Translations under genes and position numbers: made by a program
Source: Kiritimatiellia bacterium
GTDB lineage: Bacteria; Verrucomicrobiota; Kiritimatiellia; RFP12; UBA1067
Reading direction: 5' to 3'
Assembly (NCBI GenBank): GCA_017613085.1
Contig: JAGAEL010000206.1
Location: 1-35,997 of the forward strand
Length of the DNA: 35,997 bases
Shown: positions 288-35,997 of the stretch, piece after piece
Numbering within the stretch: position 1 is the stretch's first letter
Layout of the letters: every line of letters starts with the position of its first letter
The notes under the pieces: generated by a model
What the model was told of the DNA's origin: nothing
Database searches by the model: none
The model's input: the letters and a program-made list of their open reading frames with translations, nothing else

Positions 288-589
288 ATGAAAACAGCGA
301 AACGATACGTAACACTGGCCGCGATTTGTATCGTTACTGGCGCGTTCGCCGACGGACTGTCCGAGGGCTATACGCAGTTGCCGTACCTCAAGGCGAACAA
401 GAACGTTCAGGTCAAGACGGGCTATATGTCTGCCGCGACGGACAGACCGTATTCCCGACCATCGGCTCAAAGAACCGTCAAGCCCCTCGCAATTCGCTCT
501 TTTTCGAGTATCTGCGGGTTGTCATATTGCGCCGTCTCAAAAATGGACGCGATGTTCATTCCGTCGATTATGGAGAGGGTTTGATATAA
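288..589 (+). pseudogene. Broken or chimeric small secreted-protein gene
   Basis: From the ATG at 288 (preceded by AGAGGT) the frame encodes a typical signal peptide (Lys-rich start, hydrophobic core, Ala-Phe-Ala-Asp cleavage region). A stretch containing LPYLKAN and VKTGYM follows, resembling the start of secreted LamG-like proteins of this group. After about residue 50 this frame becomes unconvincing and ends at 584. From about 440 the +2 frame gives a more protein-like tail (FFEYLRVVILRRLKNG) and ends with TAA at 587-589, overlapping the methyltransferase ATG as TAATG. The simplest reading is a frameshift or a deletion that joined the head of one gene to the tail of another. I do not recognise the tail's family. 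A functional short secreted peptide cannot be excluded. Confidence 0.5.
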
Positions 590-2313
590 TGGATGGTGCG
601 ATGAAAGAGCAGAAAGAGAGACGCGTCGTGCTTGTCGGTACGTACAGGGACGACCAGCTCACGAAGTGGAGCGGGTGGTACAATTATCCCGTTTCGGAGG
701 ATGATTTTAGTCGTGTAGATGGAAAGGCGGCTTGCCCTCAAGCCGACGCACCGGGAGGGACACCGTCCTCGGCGACCGTATTCTCGGATGTCACCGAACT
801 TTGGCTCTTCAGGGGTACGGCGGTGCAGAAGAATTACCGGGCGGAATTCATCGGCATCAAGACACGCGAGGAACTGATCCGCGACTACGGATATCCGGTG
901 GATGATTCTGCCGCAAAGAACGCAAAGGGGGAGGGGCGCGCTTCGTCGCGACCGCACGGCACACACTACGCGCTCTTCAAGACCGAATCTCTGTACCATA
1001 ACAAGGGCGACGTTCCAGAAGACGCGGAGCGCGTCATCATCCGCACGTCAGACTTCGCCAAGCGTTCGCCCAAGATAGCGAAGCAGCTGAAGGCGTATCT
1101 CGAATCGCCTGATCGCAACGACCCCGACCTCGCGAAGCGGCTTCCGTCCATCCTCACCCGCCTCCGCCCCGAACAGCTCCGCGTCTGCGAAGAAGCGGTG
1201 CAGCTGGAGTTGATGTATCGTACATCCATTTATGCAGAATCATTTTGCAGATACGTATTGGGATGTGATACGACACCGTTGTTTTTCTGCGGAGACGCAC
1301 TCTCCGTCCTGCGCGAATTGCCGTCAGAATGCATTGATTGTTGCATGACCAGTCCGCCATACTGGAACAAACGCCAATATGCGGGTGGAGGTATTGGGTT
1401 AGAAGCAGACTATCATACGTACATCGATAATCTGGTGGCAATTTTCGGTGAGGTAAAACGAGTCTTGAAATCATCAGGTTCTTTCTGGCTAAATATAGGA
1501 GATTCGTATCTTGGGAAAAATCTTCTAAATGTACCGTCGCGTCTGGCGATCCGAATGCAGGATGAGCAGGGGTGGATACTTCGCAATATCGTAATTTGGA
1601 ACAAGGTCAAAGGATGCCCGGATAATTCGGAAGATAAATTGCGGAACATCTACGAGCCGATTTATCATTTTGTCAAATCGGCCAGAGGGTATTACTACGA
1701 TGTGGACAGTGTGCGGAGAAAGCCTCATCAGGCAAAGGTTGTGAACGGTGCCGTTGTCTCTGCTACGGGGGTATCAGGAATACGTTATAAACGGAAAATA
1801 GAATTGTCGACAGAGCTGACCGATGAGCAGAAGGCAAATGCATTTGCCGAACTGAATAAGATGTTAGTAAAGGTTCGAGATGGCGAAGTGTCTGATTTCC
1901 GTATGATCATAAAGGGTGAACAAAGAACAACACATTCAGACTCGGAGTGCGTATCGGGACGGGCAAGAGAACTTCACGAGAACGGGTTTTATTTTTTGAA
2001 ATACAACCCCAAGGGCGCAAAACCAAGTGATCTTTGGGATATAATCCCGGAGGACACCCAGGGAAGAGTGGCGCATTTTGCCCCCTATCCAGAAGATCTT
2101 TGCAAAACCCCGTTATTGTTGACGTGTCCCGTAAACGGCATTGTTCTGGATCCGTTTTCGGGAACGGGGACAACGGCTGTTGTCGCGCAATCGCTTGGAC
2201 GAAAATCAGTGGGTATTGATATTTCTGATGAATATATTGATGATGCGCGGAAACGTGTTTGCGGAAAGGCATTTCAGCTGGAATTGAACTTGCAGGAGGT
2301 TTGCCATGAATAA
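589..2313 (+). CDS. Beta-class DNA amino-methyltransferase with N-terminal extension (type II R-M)
   Basis: 574 aa. The C-terminal half is an S-adenosylmethionine-dependent N4-cytosine or N6-adenine DNA methyltransferase: the catalytic motif TSPPY is at residues 254-258 and the AdoMet-binding motif DPFSGTGT at 521-528. That order (IV before I) defines the beta class. Residues 1 to about 220 form an additional domain that I do not recognise; it contains WSGWYNYP and a conserved-looking ELWLFRGT stretch. Two segments of this domain (about residues 47-65 and 107-123) are encoded by the genome's palindromic repeats and look like in-frame insertions. The start at 589 is supported by GGAGAGGG about 8 bases upstream; ATG 601 is an alternative. 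It overlaps the endonuclease gene by 8 bases, so the pair is probably co-translated. The methyltransferase would protect host DNA at the partner's target; the target sequence cannot be read from the gene. The region is AT-richer than its neighbours, suggesting acquisition. Confidence 0.9.
   Translation: MDGAMKEQKERRVVLVGTYRDDQLTKWSGWYNYPVSEDDFSRVDGKAACPQADAPGGTPSSATVFSDVTELWLFRGTAVQKNYRAEFIGIKTREELIRDYGYPVDDSAAKNAKGEGRASSRPHGTHYALFKTESLYHNKGDVPEDAERVIIRTSDFAKRSPKIAKQLKAYLESPDRNDPDLAKRLPSILTRLRPEQLRVCEEAVQLELMYRTSIYAESFCRYVLGCDTTPLFFCGDALSVLRELPSECIDCCMTSPPYWNKRQYAGGGIGLEADYHTYIDNLVAIFGEVKRVLKSSGSFWLNIGDSYLGKNLLNVPSRLAIRMQDEQGWILRNIVIWNKVKGCPDNSEDKLRNIYEPIYHFVKSARGYYYDVDSVRRKPHQAKVVNGAVVSATGVSGIRYKRKIELSTELTDEQKANAFAELNKMLVKVRDGEVSDFRMIIKGEQRTTHSDSECVSGRARELHENGFYFLKYNPKGAKPSDLWDIIPEDTQGRVAHFAPYPEDLCKTPLLLTCPVNGIVLDPFSGTGTTAVVAQSLGRKSVGIDISDEYIDDARKRVCGKAFQLELNLQEVCHE
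728..782 (+). repeat. Palindromic repeat inserted in frame in the methyltransferase gene
   Basis: A perfect 7-bp hairpin (CGGCTTG 728-734, CAAGCCG 739-745, loop CCCT) is followed by a stretch around 749-760 that shares GCACCGGGAGGG with 28-38 near the window start. The encoded peptide is rich in Ala, Pro, Gly and Ser and separates two ordinary protein segments (about residues 45 and 66). The open frame is kept. This suggests insertion of an intergenic repeat in a multiple of three bases. Confidence 0.55.
908..957 (+). repeat. Family A repeat inserted in frame in the methyltransferase gene
   Basis: Positions 929-955 match 2-28 at 25 of 27 bases. The preceding 911-927 (GCCGCAAAGAACGCAAAG) matches the flank of the inverted copy near 19863-19890, so both the repeat and its usual intergenic flank are present inside the gene. 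The encoded residues (about 107-123) are low-complexity Ala/Lys/Gly/Arg/Ser. The reading frame continues through it without a stop. Confidence 0.7.
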
Positions 2314-3142
2314 AATTGTCGAACTGTTTGGTTTGAATTGCTGCCGGCCTATGCCAACGCTTAAAGAATGTCTACGAAATCAGCGTTGTCCTTTTACAGG
2401 TGTAAAATGTGTAAAGATAAGGAAAAGTCAGCCTTCTGTAGCAATAGGAACCTGTACGATTTCCTATCAAGATGCAAGTGTAATCATTTGTCCATTTCGT
2501 TTGTTGGACAAGAACCAGATATTCATGGATTGCTTGCATTTGTTGACGGCGCATGAACCTGGAAATCGAATACATCTCGTCCCCGAAGTAAAGATACCTG
2601 GAGGTAACGTTGATTACTTTCTTGTCTCTGCGAGAGATGGTAAAGTAAAGGATTTTGTCGGGATTGAGTTACAGACAATGGATACAACCGGCACTGTGTG
2701 GCCAGAGCGTCAAAGATTGTTGGCAGAGGAAGGCGTCAACGTATTACAGAAGGATTTACGAAATATGCGATCCTTTGGGATGAACTGGAAGATGACAGCA
2801 AAGACAATACTTGTCCAGATGCATCATAAGGCACAAACTTTTGAAACGCTCAATAAACATTTTGTCCTAATTGTTCAAGATCCGCTCATGCGATATATGG
2901 AGCAGGCGTTTGATTTTAGCCATGTTTCGTCGGCACTGATCGGCAACACAGTCCATTTTCATTCTTATGCATTGAAAGAGGTTGATGGCGCGTTAAGACT
3001 TTCCTTATCTTCGCGTAAGAGTACAGATTCTGATGGTGTTGGGAAATGTTTGGGGTTAAAAGCGGAGTCGGCAATGGAGTTGAGTGAACTACTCAACGTG
3101 TTGGAGACTCGATTGTCGGATAATAACCTTCTGTCTCTATAG
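2306..3142 (+). CDS. NotI-family type II restriction endonuclease
   Basis: 278 aa. Seen in sequence: cysteines C28, C35, C50 and C62 in the N-terminal third, then E94 (in PEVKIPGG), D103 (in NVDYF) and E121/Q123 (in GIELQTMD). Known: NotI carries an Fe-Cys4 site and a PD-(D/E)XK-type centre in which Gln replaces the usual Lys, with the order Glu, Asp, Glu-x-Gln. The layout here fits that family closely, although the protein is shorter than NotI (383 aa). It would cut unmethylated DNA at a specific sequence that cannot be predicted from the protein. It overlaps the methyltransferase by 8 bases, forming a complete R-M pair. Codons are visibly AT-richer than in surrounding genes, which fits horizontal transfer. 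The C-terminal 130 residues have no motif I recognise and may carry DNA contacts. Confidence 0.8.
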   Translation: MNKIVELFGLNCCRPMPTLKECLRNQRCPFTGVKCVKIRKSQPSVAIGTCTISYQDASVIICPFRLLDKNQIFMDCLHLLTAHEPGNRIHLVPEVKIPGGNVDYFLVSARDGKVKDFVGIELQTMDTTGTVWPERQRLLAEEGVNVLQKDLRNMRSFGMNWKMTAKTILVQMHHKAQTFETLNKHFVLIVQDPLMRYMEQAFDFSHVSSALIGNTVHFHSYALKEVDGALRLSLSSRKSTDSDGVGKCLGLKAESAMELSELLNVLETRLSDNNLLSL

Positions 3143-3170
3143 GAAAGGGTTTGATGTGGTGGAGTAAACC

Positions 3171-19829: not shown

Positions 19830-19990
19830 GCCATTCGGACGCGACGGGGCGCCTCCCTCCCTTTGTGGCCTTTGTGTTCTTTGCGGCTAGAACCACAGAC
19901 CGACACAGACGCGACGCGCTTACGCTTGCGCCATTCGGAATCAAGGCGAGCGTTAGCGAAGCCTGTCCGTGTCCGTCCGTGGTTAAAAAA
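19830..19990. repeat. Intergenic repeat cluster between the dtd operon and the GH51 gene
   Basis: An inverted family A copy is at 19837-19861. Its flank at 19863-19890 (CTTTGTG/TTCTTTGCGGCTAG) reads, on the other strand, like the flanks of the copies at 911-927 and 33814-33841. Further on, ACCACAGACCGACACAG (19892-19908) and GTCCGTGTCCGTCCGTGGTT (19965-19984) form imperfect inverted arms. No gene is supported in 19800-20104. An extended reading of the GH51 frame into this area encodes only repeat sequence. Confidence 0.65.
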
Positions 19991-20104: not shown

Positions 20105-22693
20105 ATGAAGAAAATCGCAAAATCGGGGTTTTCAGGGTACAGGAACACGCTTGCCGCCCTTGCGGTGATTGGTCTTGCGGGGACGATAACAGCCGCAGAA
20201 ATACCCGCTGCGGATGCGCTGGCGCACCGCTGGCGGTTTAATGGGGATGTCGCGGATTCCGTGACGGGCACGGAAGCGAAGCAGATCGGCAAGCCGGAGC
20301 TTACGGCGGCGACGCTCGTCCTGCCCGGCGGCAAAAAAGGTTCGGGGGCGCTCGACCTCGGGACGGATCTGCTTCCGGCGGACGGCTCGGACGTCACGAT
20401 CGAGGTGTGGGGGACGCTCAAGTCCGTCCATCCATGGGCGCGCATCTTCGACTACGGTTCGGACGACAAGAACTACTTTACGATGGCGTGGAGTTACTTC
20501 GACCAGCCTGGCACGGACAGCATCGAGATGTGCTGCGACGGAAAGAAGCGTTCTGCGTTCAAGACGCTGTGTCCGTACAAGGTCGGAACGCCGTACCACA
20601 TCTCCGTGACGCTCATGAACAACGGGAACGGTTCCACGACGATGCGTGCGATGCGCCGCAATGCGAAGACCGGCGCAATCGAGCGTGAACACCGCCAGCT
20701 CTACAGCGGATGGACGCTTGCGTCCATCAAAAAGCCGCACCTACTTCTCGGCGGTTCGCAGTATGCGGCTGACGGCGACGCGGGCGCGGAGTATGACGAG
20801 GTTCGCGTATGGAAGGCCGTGTTGACCGACCGGCAGCTTGCGGCGAACGTCATCGCGGGACCGGACATCCTGCCCGCGAAAGTCTCCGTTTCGACGGAAC
20901 GCGGCGCGAAGCCGGTCCCCGCTTTCATCTTCGGGCAGAACATCGAGCATACGCGCTCGGCGGTGCAGGGCGGGCTTTCCGCGCAGCTCGTCAAGAACCG
21001 CAAATTCGCCGGCAAGCCCTCGCGCATCGGTGTCGCGATGATGTGGAAGCCCTACGGTTCCAAGGCGTTATATCACCAGGCAGAGGGGCTCTCCTGCACG
21101 CGCCATGCGAAGCGCAGCCGGATGTTCCGAAAGAACGAGCGCGCCTCGCAGGTGATCGGGTGCCTTGACGAGAAGGGCGAGGCGGGCATCCGCCAGGAGG
21201 GGATCGGACTGCGCGGCGGAGTCGCGCACAACTTCAGGGCCGTCGTCAGCACGCTCCATCCCGTCGATACGCCCTTCGTGCTGCGTGTCGCCGCGAACGG
21301 AAAGCTCCTCGCCGAACGCGCGTTTACGGTGAACACAAAGAAGCGCGACGACTGGACGCGCATCGCGTTCGACTTCACGGTGGAGAAGGACGTCACGGCG
21401 GAGATTTCTATCGGCGTGAAGGGGAGGAAGTACGGGATTGTGGGCGCCGTCTCGGTGATGCCGGCGGACAACTTCCGCGGGATGCGCGCGGACGTGATCG
21501 AGCACCTGCGCGACATCGGCACCTCGATCGTCCGCTGGCCGGGCGGCAACTTCGCGGGCGAGTACCGCTGGCGCGACGGGCTCATCGCCGACCCTGACGA
21601 GCGCGCGCCGCTTCAGGCGTACACCGAGATCGAATCGCAACCCCATAGCCTCGGCTACGACTCGAACGACATCGGCATGGAGGACATCCTCGCACTCTGC
21701 GAGCGGATCGGGGCGCAGCCGTTTTTCACCCTCAACGCGACGTGGGAGGAACCGCAGGATTCCGCCGACTGGGTGAAGGCGTGCAGGGGGCGCGTGAAGC
21801 TGTGGTCGCTCGGAAACGAAATGGGCTATGGCCACATGGAGGGGCCTAAGGGCGCGAAGGGCTACACGGACATGGTGCGTCCTCACGCGGAGGCGATGCT
21901 CAAGGTCGATCCGACGCTCACGATCACGGCGTCGGGTCCGTACCCGTGGGGCGGGAACGACTGGATCGAGGACAGCGCCAAGGCGCTCAACGACGTCGCA
22001 CCTGTGATCTCCTACCACCGCTACGACATCTGGAACGGCTGCATCTACGACTACACCACGCCCGAAAGCACGGAAAGGCTCTTCGCCGCCGTGTCGCAGT
22101 GCGTTGACAAGACGATGGACACGCTATGCGCCTTCCGTTCGCGCCTTCCGTGGAACATTGGAATATCCTACGACGAATGGAATCTCTGGTATATGTGGTA
22201 TCGCAAGGAGGCCATCGTCGAGGGGCTTTATGCGGCGAAGATGCTCACGGGATTCATGCGCAGCTGGGAGGACGCGGGGCTCACGTACGTCTGCTACTTC
22301 CAGGCGATCAACGAGCAGGCGATCTGCGTGAGCCCGTTCGAGAGCCACCTTACGTCGCTCGGCGAGGCGATGCGCCTCTGGAAGGGGCACGTGGGCGGTG
22401 TCCCGGCGCGGACGGGACAAAGCCCGTCCCTCCCGGACAATGCCTTTGTCACGGATGCGCCGGACGGCACGCGCTACGTGACGTTCTACAACTTCTCGAC
22501 CGTGGAGCCCTGCACGTTCCGTATCCCGACGGACGGGCGAGGGAAGATTGTCGCGGCGGAGACGCTTGTCCCGAACGGCTTGGAGAGCGGCTGCCGCTTT
22601 GAACGCAAGCCGGGAACCGGCAAGGTTGTCGGTGGATTCTACGAACTGACGCTCACACCCGCTTCCCTTTCCTGTGTGAGACTCGAGAAATGA
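20105..22693 (+). CDS. Secreted GH51-type alpha-L-arabinofuranosidase with LamG domain
   Basis: 862 aa. A signal peptide ends near residue 31 (TITAAEI). Residues about 36-260 form a LamG/concanavalin-like domain (HRWRFNGDVADSVTG, VTIEVWGTLKS, EYDEVRVWKAVLTD). The GH51 region follows: FGQNIEHTRS at the barrel start, SIVRWPGGNFAGEYRWRDG, the acid/base E572 in SLGNEMGYGH, and the nucleophile E691 in SYDEWNLWYMW. A C-terminal beta domain ends in LSCVRLEK. Expected to release arabinofuranose from plant arabinans or arabinoxylans outside the cytoplasm. Residues about 766-778 derive from a repeat insertion. ATG 20105 has a strong ribosome site and gives the signal peptide. It overlaps the GH78 gene by four bases (ATGA). 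Confidence 0.9.
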   Translation: MKKIAKSGFSGYRNTLAALAVIGLAGTITAAEIPAADALAHRWRFNGDVADSVTGTEAKQIGKPELTAATLVLPGGKKGSGALDLGTDLLPADGSDVTIEVWGTLKSVHPWARIFDYGSDDKNYFTMAWSYFDQPGTDSIEMCCDGKKRSAFKTLCPYKVGTPYHISVTLMNNGNGSTTMRAMRRNAKTGAIEREHRQLYSGWTLASIKKPHLLLGGSQYAADGDAGAEYDEVRVWKAVLTDRQLAANVIAGPDILPAKVSVSTERGAKPVPAFIFGQNIEHTRSAVQGGLSAQLVKNRKFAGKPSRIGVAMMWKPYGSKALYHQAEGLSCTRHAKRSRMFRKNERASQVIGCLDEKGEAGIRQEGIGLRGGVAHNFRAVVSTLHPVDTPFVLRVAANGKLLAERAFTVNTKKRDDWTRIAFDFTVEKDVTAEISIGVKGRKYGIVGAVSVMPADNFRGMRADVIEHLRDIGTSIVRWPGGNFAGEYRWRDGLIADPDERAPLQAYTEIESQPHSLGYDSNDIGMEDILALCERIGAQPFFTLNATWEEPQDSADWVKACRGRVKLWSLGNEMGYGHMEGPKGAKGYTDMVRPHAEAMLKVDPTLTITASGPYPWGGNDWIEDSAKALNDVAPVISYHRYDIWNGCIYDYTTPESTERLFAAVSQCVDKTMDTLCAFRSRLPWNIGISYDEWNLWYMWYRKEAIVEGLYAAKMLTGFMRSWEDAGLTYVCYFQAINEQAICVSPFESHLTSLGEAMRLWKGHVGGVPARTGQSPSLPDNAFVTDAPDGTRYVTFYNFSTVEPCTFRIPTDGRGKIVAAETLVPNGLESGCRFERKPGTGKVVGGFYELTLTPASLSCVRLEK
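22402..22437 (+). repeat. Palindromic repeat inserted in frame in the GH51 gene
   Basis: Arms GACGGG (22411-22416) and CCCGTC (22423-22428) flank a short loop, followed by CCTCCCGG, the hallmark end of the genome's palindromic repeats read in reverse. The encoded residues (about 766-778, PARTGQSPSLPD) lie between the catalytic barrel and the C-terminal beta domain, a tolerant linker position. The frame is maintained. Confidence 0.5.
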
Positions 22694-33956: not shown

Positions 33957-34168
33957 GGGAGGGCGCGTGTCCCCACGCGCCGTGTACGCGGCAGTCGCGG
34001 CGGTTGAGGACAACCGCCCTCCCGTTTCAAATGACCCGAAGGAGGGAGGGGGCGTGTCCCCACGCGCCGTGTACGCGGCAAGTCGCGGCGGTTGAGGACA
34101 ACCGCCCTCCCGTTTCAAATGCCCCGAAGGAGGGAGGGCGCGTGTCCCCACGCGCCGTGTGGGAACTG
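33957..34168. repeat. Tandem array of 87/88-bp palindromic units
   Basis: Three copies of the family B hairpin (GCGCGTG, loop TCCC, CACGCGC) lie at about 33963, 34050 and 34138, with periods of 87 and 88 bases. Between them is a second hairpin, GGCGGTTG with CAACCGCC, at 34000-34019 and its copy about 87 bases on. The intervening bases are nearly identical between units. The array is too short and too similar throughout to be CRISPR. It appears to be a locally amplified version of the dispersed repeats. Confidence 0.85.
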
Positions 34169-34459: not shown

Positions 34460-35997
34460 ATGAAGAAACTGTGGATGACCGTCTTTGGCTGTATCTTGTA
34501 CACACTTCCAATCTGGGCTGACATGGAGATAGTCGGTGGCTTCATGTTGACATACCGCCTCAACGGCGACACGGCGGAGATTTACCGCGTCGTCCCCGTC
34601 TCCGCCTCTCCCTCCCCGTCGAGCGAGTTGACGATTCCCGACACCCTCGGCGGCAAGCCGGTGACGAGCATCGGGGAGCATGCGTTCAAGTCTCTCTCGC
34701 TGACGAGCGTGACGATTCCGGGTTCGGTGACGAGTATCGGAGGGGGGCGTTCTATGATTGCGACGCGTTAACGAGCGTGACGATTCCGGAATCGGTGACG
34801 AATATCGGAGGGGGGCGTTCTATGATTGCGACGCGTTAACGAGCGTGACGATTCCGGAATCGGTGACGAATATCGGAGATAATGCGTTCGGTAATTGCAT
34901 TAGACTGACGAGCGTGACGATCCCGGGTTCGGTGACGAGTATCGGGTCTAGTGCGTTCTCTTATTGCTATCACTTGAAGAGCGTGACGATTGGAAACGGT
35001 GTGACGAGCATCGGGGAGTATGCATTCCGCGATTGCAGCGAACTGACGAGCGTGACGATCGGCAACGGCGTGGCGAGCATCGGGAAGAGTGCGTTCGAAT
35101 GTTGCAGTATGTTGACGAGCGTGACAATCCCGAGTTCGGTTCGATTCATCGGGGAGTATGCGTTCAATGTCTGCGAGGCTCTAGAGACGGTCATCTTTAA
35201 AGGCAATATGAACGCGATAAACATGGATCTAACGTCTGCGTTTAGACATACGCCGTGGCTTGACGCCTGGGGGAAAAGCAACAATGGCTCCGACGCTACC
35301 GAAATCTTCGAGTCGGGGGAGGCCCAGACCGGCACTTTCGCGGGTAACGCCCAGTACACGGGCTGGCTGAACGACGCGGACGGCAACCTCGTCGGGACGG
35401 TCACCGTCAAGGCGGCGAAGCCGAACGCGAAGACGAAGGCGTCGAAACTGACCGCGACGGTCGTCATGCTCGCCGACGGCAAGAAGCTGACCTTCAGCGG
35501 GACGGCGACCGCCGGCGTGGGCGTTGCAACCGCCAGCCTGACCGGCAAGGGCGGTCCGCTTGCCTTGACGCTCTCGGACGATTCGGTTACCGGCACGTTC
35601 GGCGCCTACACGGTCGAGGCGGCGAAGAACGTCTTCACGTCGAAGGATTCCGGCGACAAGGCGTCCGCCGCCATCGTCGCGAAGAAGACCTGGACGGCGA
35701 CGCTCGCCTCCGCGAAGGGGTACACGCCCTTCACGATCGCCGTGGCGGCGAAGGGCAAGGCGAAGGTCACGGGCGTCCTGCCCGACGGCACGAAGGTCTC
35801 CGTCTCGGCGCAGGCCGTCGTGGGCGACGGCGGGCGTTGGGCGGTCCCGGTGATGTACGCGAAGAAATCCCGGTTCGGGTTCGTCGCCTGGTTCGAGAAG
35901 GGCGCGGACGGGCAGACGGCGCTCACGGACGTTTCCGACCTGACGCCGCTCCGCGGCCCGAAGGGCGCCGTCACGGAGTGGGCGGCTGACCTCGACG
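34460..35997 (+). CDS. BspA-like leucine-rich-repeat surface protein, twice frame-broken, partial
   Basis: ATG 34460 gives a signal peptide (KKLWMTVFGCILYTLPIWA), then LRR_5-type repeats of 23 residues with the pattern LTSVTIPxSVTSIGxxAF. At 34742-34747 a G6 tract shifts the frame, and translation would stop at 34769-34771 (103 aa). The repeats resume in the +1 frame, break again at the G6 tract 34810-34815, and then run open in the third frame to the window edge. About nine repeats are followed by Ala/Lys/Thr/Gly-rich beta-sheet modules (KLTATVVMLADGKKLTFSG, TWTATLASAKG), as found in C-terminal parts of secreted proteins of this group. One extra G in each tract would restore a single frame. 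The 3' end lies outside. Phase variation, ribosomal slippage, pseudogene or assembly error are all possible. Confidence 0.75.
34741..34876 (+). repeat. Exact 68-bp tandem duplication with G6 tracts in the LRR gene
   Basis: Positions 34741-34808 and 34809-34876 are identical over 68 bases, and each begins with A followed by six Gs. A normal LRR unit in this gene is 69 bases (23 codons), so each copy is one base short, and the missing base falls in the G run. Three copies (204 bases) would be a multiple of three. Both slippage in the G run and copy-number change could switch the frame. Confidence 0.9.

Follow-up and report, generated by a model that had tools for sequence, protein, structure and literature searches.

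The N-terminal domain of a DNA methyltransferase carries two in-frame cassettes built from the palindromic repeats (REPs) of its own genome. The gene lies in the window, which is the whole analysed stretch of 35,997 nucleotides and constitutes contig C206 of the source genome (G000), a metagenome assembly of 2.43 Mb in 206 contigs, ca. 67% complete. The REPs have very probably been copied by a REP-associated HUH/Y1 tyrosine transposase (RAYT), with in-frame copies in loops surviving selection and the same loops being refilled repeatedly by the local REP type.

The methyltransferase gene and its two cassettes

The following features of the window are referred to below.

2–91, no strand: intergenic REP cluster with alternating orientations (inverted repeat I1), including the copy at 2–28 used as reference in the first-pass annotation
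589–2313, + strand: DNA methyltransferase gene, 574 aa, with an N-terminal domain at residues ca. 8–212 and an N6/N4 methylase domain at 249–554 (Pfam PF01555, E 1.5e-46)
703–720, + strand: T-rich leader of loop 1, GATTTTAGTCGTGTAGAT, of the 9-mer CGTGTAGA type; the same leader occurs in the C23 paralogue of G000, in G028 and G003, and scattered elsewhere
706–786, + strand: loop-1 cassette, residues F40–S66, replacing ca. 8–9 native codons; gap in 24 of 28 N-domains
726–745, + strand: loop-1 hairpin with a perfect stem, GGCGGCTTGCCCTCAAGCCG, similar to the hairpin of the intergenic GGCGGTTGTCCTCAACCGCC REP
753–774, + strand: degenerate GGGAGGG-tagged REP unit of loop 1
898–954, + strand: loop-2 cassette, residues V104–P122, replacing ca. 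5 native codons; gap in 25 of 28 N-domains
904–928, + strand: loop-2 leader, GATTCTGCCGCAAAGAACGCAAAGG, of a type present also 5' of intergenic REPs
929–953, + strand: loop-2 REP, GGGAGGGGCGCGCTTCGTCGCGACC, with 263 genome copies (≤3 mismatches) against one in the control
2306–3142, + strand: NotI-like restriction endonuclease (PF12183, E 1.1e-7)
19837–19890, − strand: intergenic leader and REP cassette of loop-2-like composition
22410–22434, − strand: in-frame REP within an 810-aa GH51-like gene (20261–22693)

The methyltransferase belongs to a restriction-modification pair, the NotI-like endonuclease being its likely partner. A 71% direct repeat (559–593 / 3129–3163) brackets the pair, the open reading frame immediately upstream (from 288) appears truncated, and the module may have been inserted at the 559–3163 site. 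The simple codon-usage gene caller overlooked the methyltransferase gene, and long open frames were also examined.

The N-terminal domain of ca. 200 aa forms a separate module. Peptide patterns of the protein retrieved 67 named relatives, which begin at query residue 144 or later, mostly after 190. Within the set of genomes searched, homologues of the N-domain came solely from the same order, with no case of the same residues in unrelated bacteria. The N-domain (window 610–1224) produced no Pfam match, and the fold search gave nothing at E ≤ 0.001, the ASCH/YTH (PUA-like) folds recurring weakly and none of them significantly.

The reading frame is kept through both segments, as the first-pass annotation had stated, in an open frame of 574 codons with the PF01555 domain downstream. 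Its description of two repeat-derived segments held in that both derive from genome repeats; the first segment is, however, wider than noted (codons 40–66, not 47–65), and both are composite cassettes of leader and REP, with different ones in the same loops of sister lineages. The cassettes are 81 nt (loop 1) and 57 nt (loop 2) long. Each replaces about 5–9 native codons and is not a clean insertion, and neither a clean empty site nor a target-site signature or duplication was found. AF2 modelling of the N-domain of the window protein gave a mean pLDDT of 77.7, with ca. 83–94 in the core blocks and values below 50 at fragment residues 34–52 and 109–114, within the two inserts. Both loops are thus predicted as likely exposed and disordered, in line with the added peptide loops proposed earlier.

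Identity and distribution of the repeat

The segment 929–955 is identical to 2–28 at 25 of 27 bases, which bears out its first-pass identification as a repeat copy. With at most three mismatches allowed, the pattern GGGAGGGNCGCGCTTCGTCGCG had 130 + 133 = 263 matches in the genome and the reversed control one, so the match lies far above chance and the family has abundant further copies. The repeats consist of a GGGAG tag and a GC-rich hairpin, frequently with a T-rich tandem leader of 8/9-mers on the 5' side. They have the palindromic form (20–40 bp, hairpin present) and the copy number (more than 100 per genome) that characterize REPs. Intergenic relatives of the loop-1 hairpin are present at 33999–34023 and 34087–34111. 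The GTAG foot is absent from the repeats of the window genome, which have GGGAG in its place, while GTAG REPs are present in the sister genomes G001 and G028. Since the GGGAG tag differs from that of the GTAG superfamily, the window repeat is a RAYT-type REP and not a member of that superfamily.

The flank at 911–927 proved a genuine part of the repeat context, as close relatives of the GCCGCAAAGAACGCAAAGG leader stand directly 5' of intergenic REPs, for example at 19837–19861(−) in the window and at two further places on contig C17. The order of leader followed by REP is common to loop 2 and the intergenic copies (e.g. 19837–19890(−)). A leader was found within 70 nt 5' of 10 of the 97 REPs in a 403-kb sample, the loop-2 copy counted, in comparison to 0.3% of random 70-nt windows. 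The leader sequences had no match in any paper text searched, and the leader has no explanation in RAYT biology as known. GxxExxY nuclease genes as companions of the leader found no support in papers and were set aside, and a REP-like match on contig C1 (L146 462) was dismissed as a chance match.

The sample consisted of contigs C1–C40 (at most 20 kb each) and the window, with a coding fraction of 0.85 according to a crude gene caller. Eight of its 95 hairpin places were genic, with coding signal on both sides, and distributed among seven genes; the remaining 87 had no coding signal on both sides. Thus 8% of the REP places are genic against 85% of the sample coding, and the repeats are predominantly extragenic. 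The host genes are two methyltransferase paralogues, two GH106-like genes, a NAGLU-family gene, a surface-type protein and the GH51-like gene. Among the genic REPs both orientations and several phases are represented, the NAGLU-family gene having two in opposed orientation.

Leader peptides were also observed elsewhere. The peptide FSRVERVERVD is present in frame in a repeated domain (SAGEFSRVERVERVDG) of the surface-type proteins L213, L214, L216 and L218 of G029, and in an adenine-methylase-like frame in G024 (L205). Separately, the window includes BspA-like leucine-rich tandem repeats at 34651–35165, in which two units, both including GGAGGGGGGCG, are one nucleotide short (68 nt, not 69); the frame would break there, and either an error in sequencing or a G tract of variable length may be responsible.

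The same loops and transposases in related genomes

In an alignment of 28 related N-domains both segments were gaps in most rows, as the first-pass annotation had predicted for relatives from other genera. Inserts were present in four N-domains at loop 1 and in three at loop 2, and an additional loop-2 case outside these counts was found in G015 (L048). The inserts vary, with leaders of CGTGTAGA, CGCAGAG, CGCAAAG or CACAGAG and various hairpins. In the paralogue and in other genera both loops hold other cassettes, built from each genome's own REPs. The GGTAGGGCGCG-type REP carried by the G028 inserts has 155 copies in G028 and three in G000, and the G028 loop insert is identical to other places in that genome. 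The window-type REP has 478 copies in G001, 263 in G000, 141 in G002 and 25 in G003. As the inserts match REP types abundant locally, these lineages used their own REPs.

The tree constructed without the insert columns requires no fewer than three changes in loop 1 and two in loop 2, so that on it the inserts have more than one origin, and a single loop-1 clade was rejected (p-AU 0.017). The group for this test was picked after the alignment had been viewed, and its result is suggestive rather than strict. A broken N-domain remnant in G003 (contig C130; L143:600-1500(−)) carries a loop-1-type cassette, beyond which the homology continues in a different frame, as is expected if insertion ignores frame. 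The first-pass annotation had implied repeats spreading at lengths that reading frames tolerate. The genic minority of eight places among 95, the several phases, both orientations and this out-of-frame copy do not support that idea, and survivorship is a simpler reading than frame-adapted repeats.

A RAYT gene of the source genome was found at C140:7338-7766, with a score of 84.9 bits, above the cut-off of the NCBIfam RAYT model NF047646. Its stop codon is immediately followed by REPs, and upstream a REP fragment stands at the contig end. Copies of GGGAGGGTCGCGCTCCGTCGCGACC, a window-type REP, also stand on both sides of the G020 RAYT, so that RAYT genes flanked by the same REPs are present in both genomes. 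Y1_Tnp (PF01797) alone had identified one weak gene in the source genome, without flanking REPs, and the NCBIfam model was needed. A generic scan for GTAG/GGAG hairpins around Y1 genes showed no enrichment (24 against 26 in the reversed control), and the evidence linking REPs and RAYTs was consequently restricted to exact repeated copies. Some Y1/RAYT-like genes in the genomes examined had no adjoining REPs.

REPs of the respective genome are present in frame also within RAYTs themselves, namely L262:1465-1995 (G000 C140), L263, L268, L269 and L239. The four same-genus RAYTs have a REP at one constant loop, and this REP changes from species to species. In the alignment of close relatives, the loop between the HUH and tyrosine motifs is occupied by AVAARGDTRPHVGGRLSSTAEN in G000, TGGPQFIAADNDADTPDAMNCVPP in G001, GLGNEDVAPP in G002 and a two-REP stretch in G003, and by nothing in G020. 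The REP inside the G000 C140 gene reproduces the one after its stop codon exactly over 30 bp. That inside the G001 RAYT has 25 genome copies within two mismatches, and a second G001 RAYT includes several in-frame GTAGCGACGGCGCCCTCGCCGTCG REPs, of a family of 141 copies.

Origin of the cassettes and comparison with known systems

Most likely, the REP family is copied by the RAYT encoded on C140, although the pairing of RAYT to REP appears ambiguous at the level of sequence, several REP types sharing the GGGAG tag. Insertions fall chiefly between genes and would be nearly neutral. The few copies seen in genes are the ones in which the frame is preserved and nothing but disordered loop residues is added, presumably through selection after insertion and not through frame-aware insertion. 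Filling of the same permissive loops has recurred in several lineages, always with the local REP type, and modules may also be replaced at a loop already occupied.

Recombination or gene conversion could instead install the loop REPs, the REP of an ancestral cassette being overwritten from the genome's REP pool. Such overwriting would fit the cassettes of the window and the C23 paralogue, both of which share their start (GATGATT) and end but not their middle hairpins and leaders, as well as the exact copy inside the C140 RAYT. It fits poorly with the separate loop-1 gains needed on the tree, where one clade was rejected, and with the G020 RAYT and most N-domains being without a cassette, and we consider it the less likely explanation. 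An adaptive or regulatory role, in which the tandem leaders would provide phase-variable switching of the gene or the REP hairpin would modulate the mRNA, could be read from the restriction-modification context, the 8/9-mer tandem leader and the frame-broken G003 copy. The leaders have, however, only two or three units, and cassettes or REPs are also present in glycoside hydrolases, surface-type proteins and RAYTs, which makes such a role improbable. An assembly or binning artefact is more improbable still: repeats may provoke misassembly, and the source is a metagenome assembly 67% complete, but the frames are open across cassettes in several genomes and paralogues, and the protein alignment is consistent on either side of them. 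Ordinary low-complexity growth of the loops with chance likeness to the repeats, conceivable in a GC-rich genome (0.595), is refuted by the pattern counts (263 against 1) and contradicted by the leader–REP order shared with intergenic copies and by the exact matches of the G028 insert elsewhere in its own genome, leaving it practically no probability.

We also offer, tentatively and with less than even confidence, a wider proposal. Some protein loops may be recurrent docking sites for the genome's current REP type, refilled or overwritten species by species. They would include the methyltransferase N-domain loops and the HUH–tyrosine loop of the RAYT, so that the transposase gene would bear its own substrate REP in frame and possibly regulate or maintain itself. 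The loops, filled differently in sister species, empty in others and in one case frame-broken, form a natural experiment in which noncoding mobile repeats become protein sequence, and the REP-bearing RAYTs provide a concrete test of transposase control by a substrate embedded in the transposase's own gene.

In-frame insertion is already known for REPs and for Rickettsia palindromic elements (RPEs); recurrently filled loops and RAYTs decorated with their own REPs appear undescribed in the open-licence papers searched. Intragenic REPs have been reported with the GTAG cases most abundant in Opitutus terrae, a Verrucomicrobium, and flexible loops have been proposed as sites tolerating them (PMC3733652). 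The first-pass remark that no description was known for this group is not supported, the repeat being of the REP/RAYT type. Like the intragenic GTAG/CGTC REPs, those of the window are tagged palindromes of 20–40 bp, mostly extragenic, some genic, and linked to RAYTs (PMC3733652). They differ in the GGGAG tag of the window genome, GTAG being found in sister genomes, in being composite with a T-rich tandem leader, and in the re-occupation of the same loop across lineages and the REPs within the RAYT itself.

RPEs, the classic case of such palindromes, are elements of ca. 150 bp present in frame inside unrelated proteins (PMC10969869). Palindromic repeats are likewise in frame in unrelated proteins here, in methyltransferases, GH106-like, GH51-like and NAGLU-like proteins and RAYTs. 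Ours are, in contrast, ca. 25–80 bp long and GC-rich, with a RAYT present; the first-pass distinction from RPEs stands by size (cassettes of 57 and 81 nt against ca. 150 bp) and not by direct comparison of sequences. Coding-region MITEs (PMC10969869) are similar as small non-autonomous repeats fused to genes, while their terminal inverted repeats with target-site duplication were not found here. With the REP/REPIN–RAYT systems (PMC2817692; PMC3116915) the repeats share the high-copy hairpins with a foot tag, the inverted pairs and the RAYT adjoining REPs, the difference being that the RAYT frame itself bears REPs here, at a constant loop and in species-specific form.
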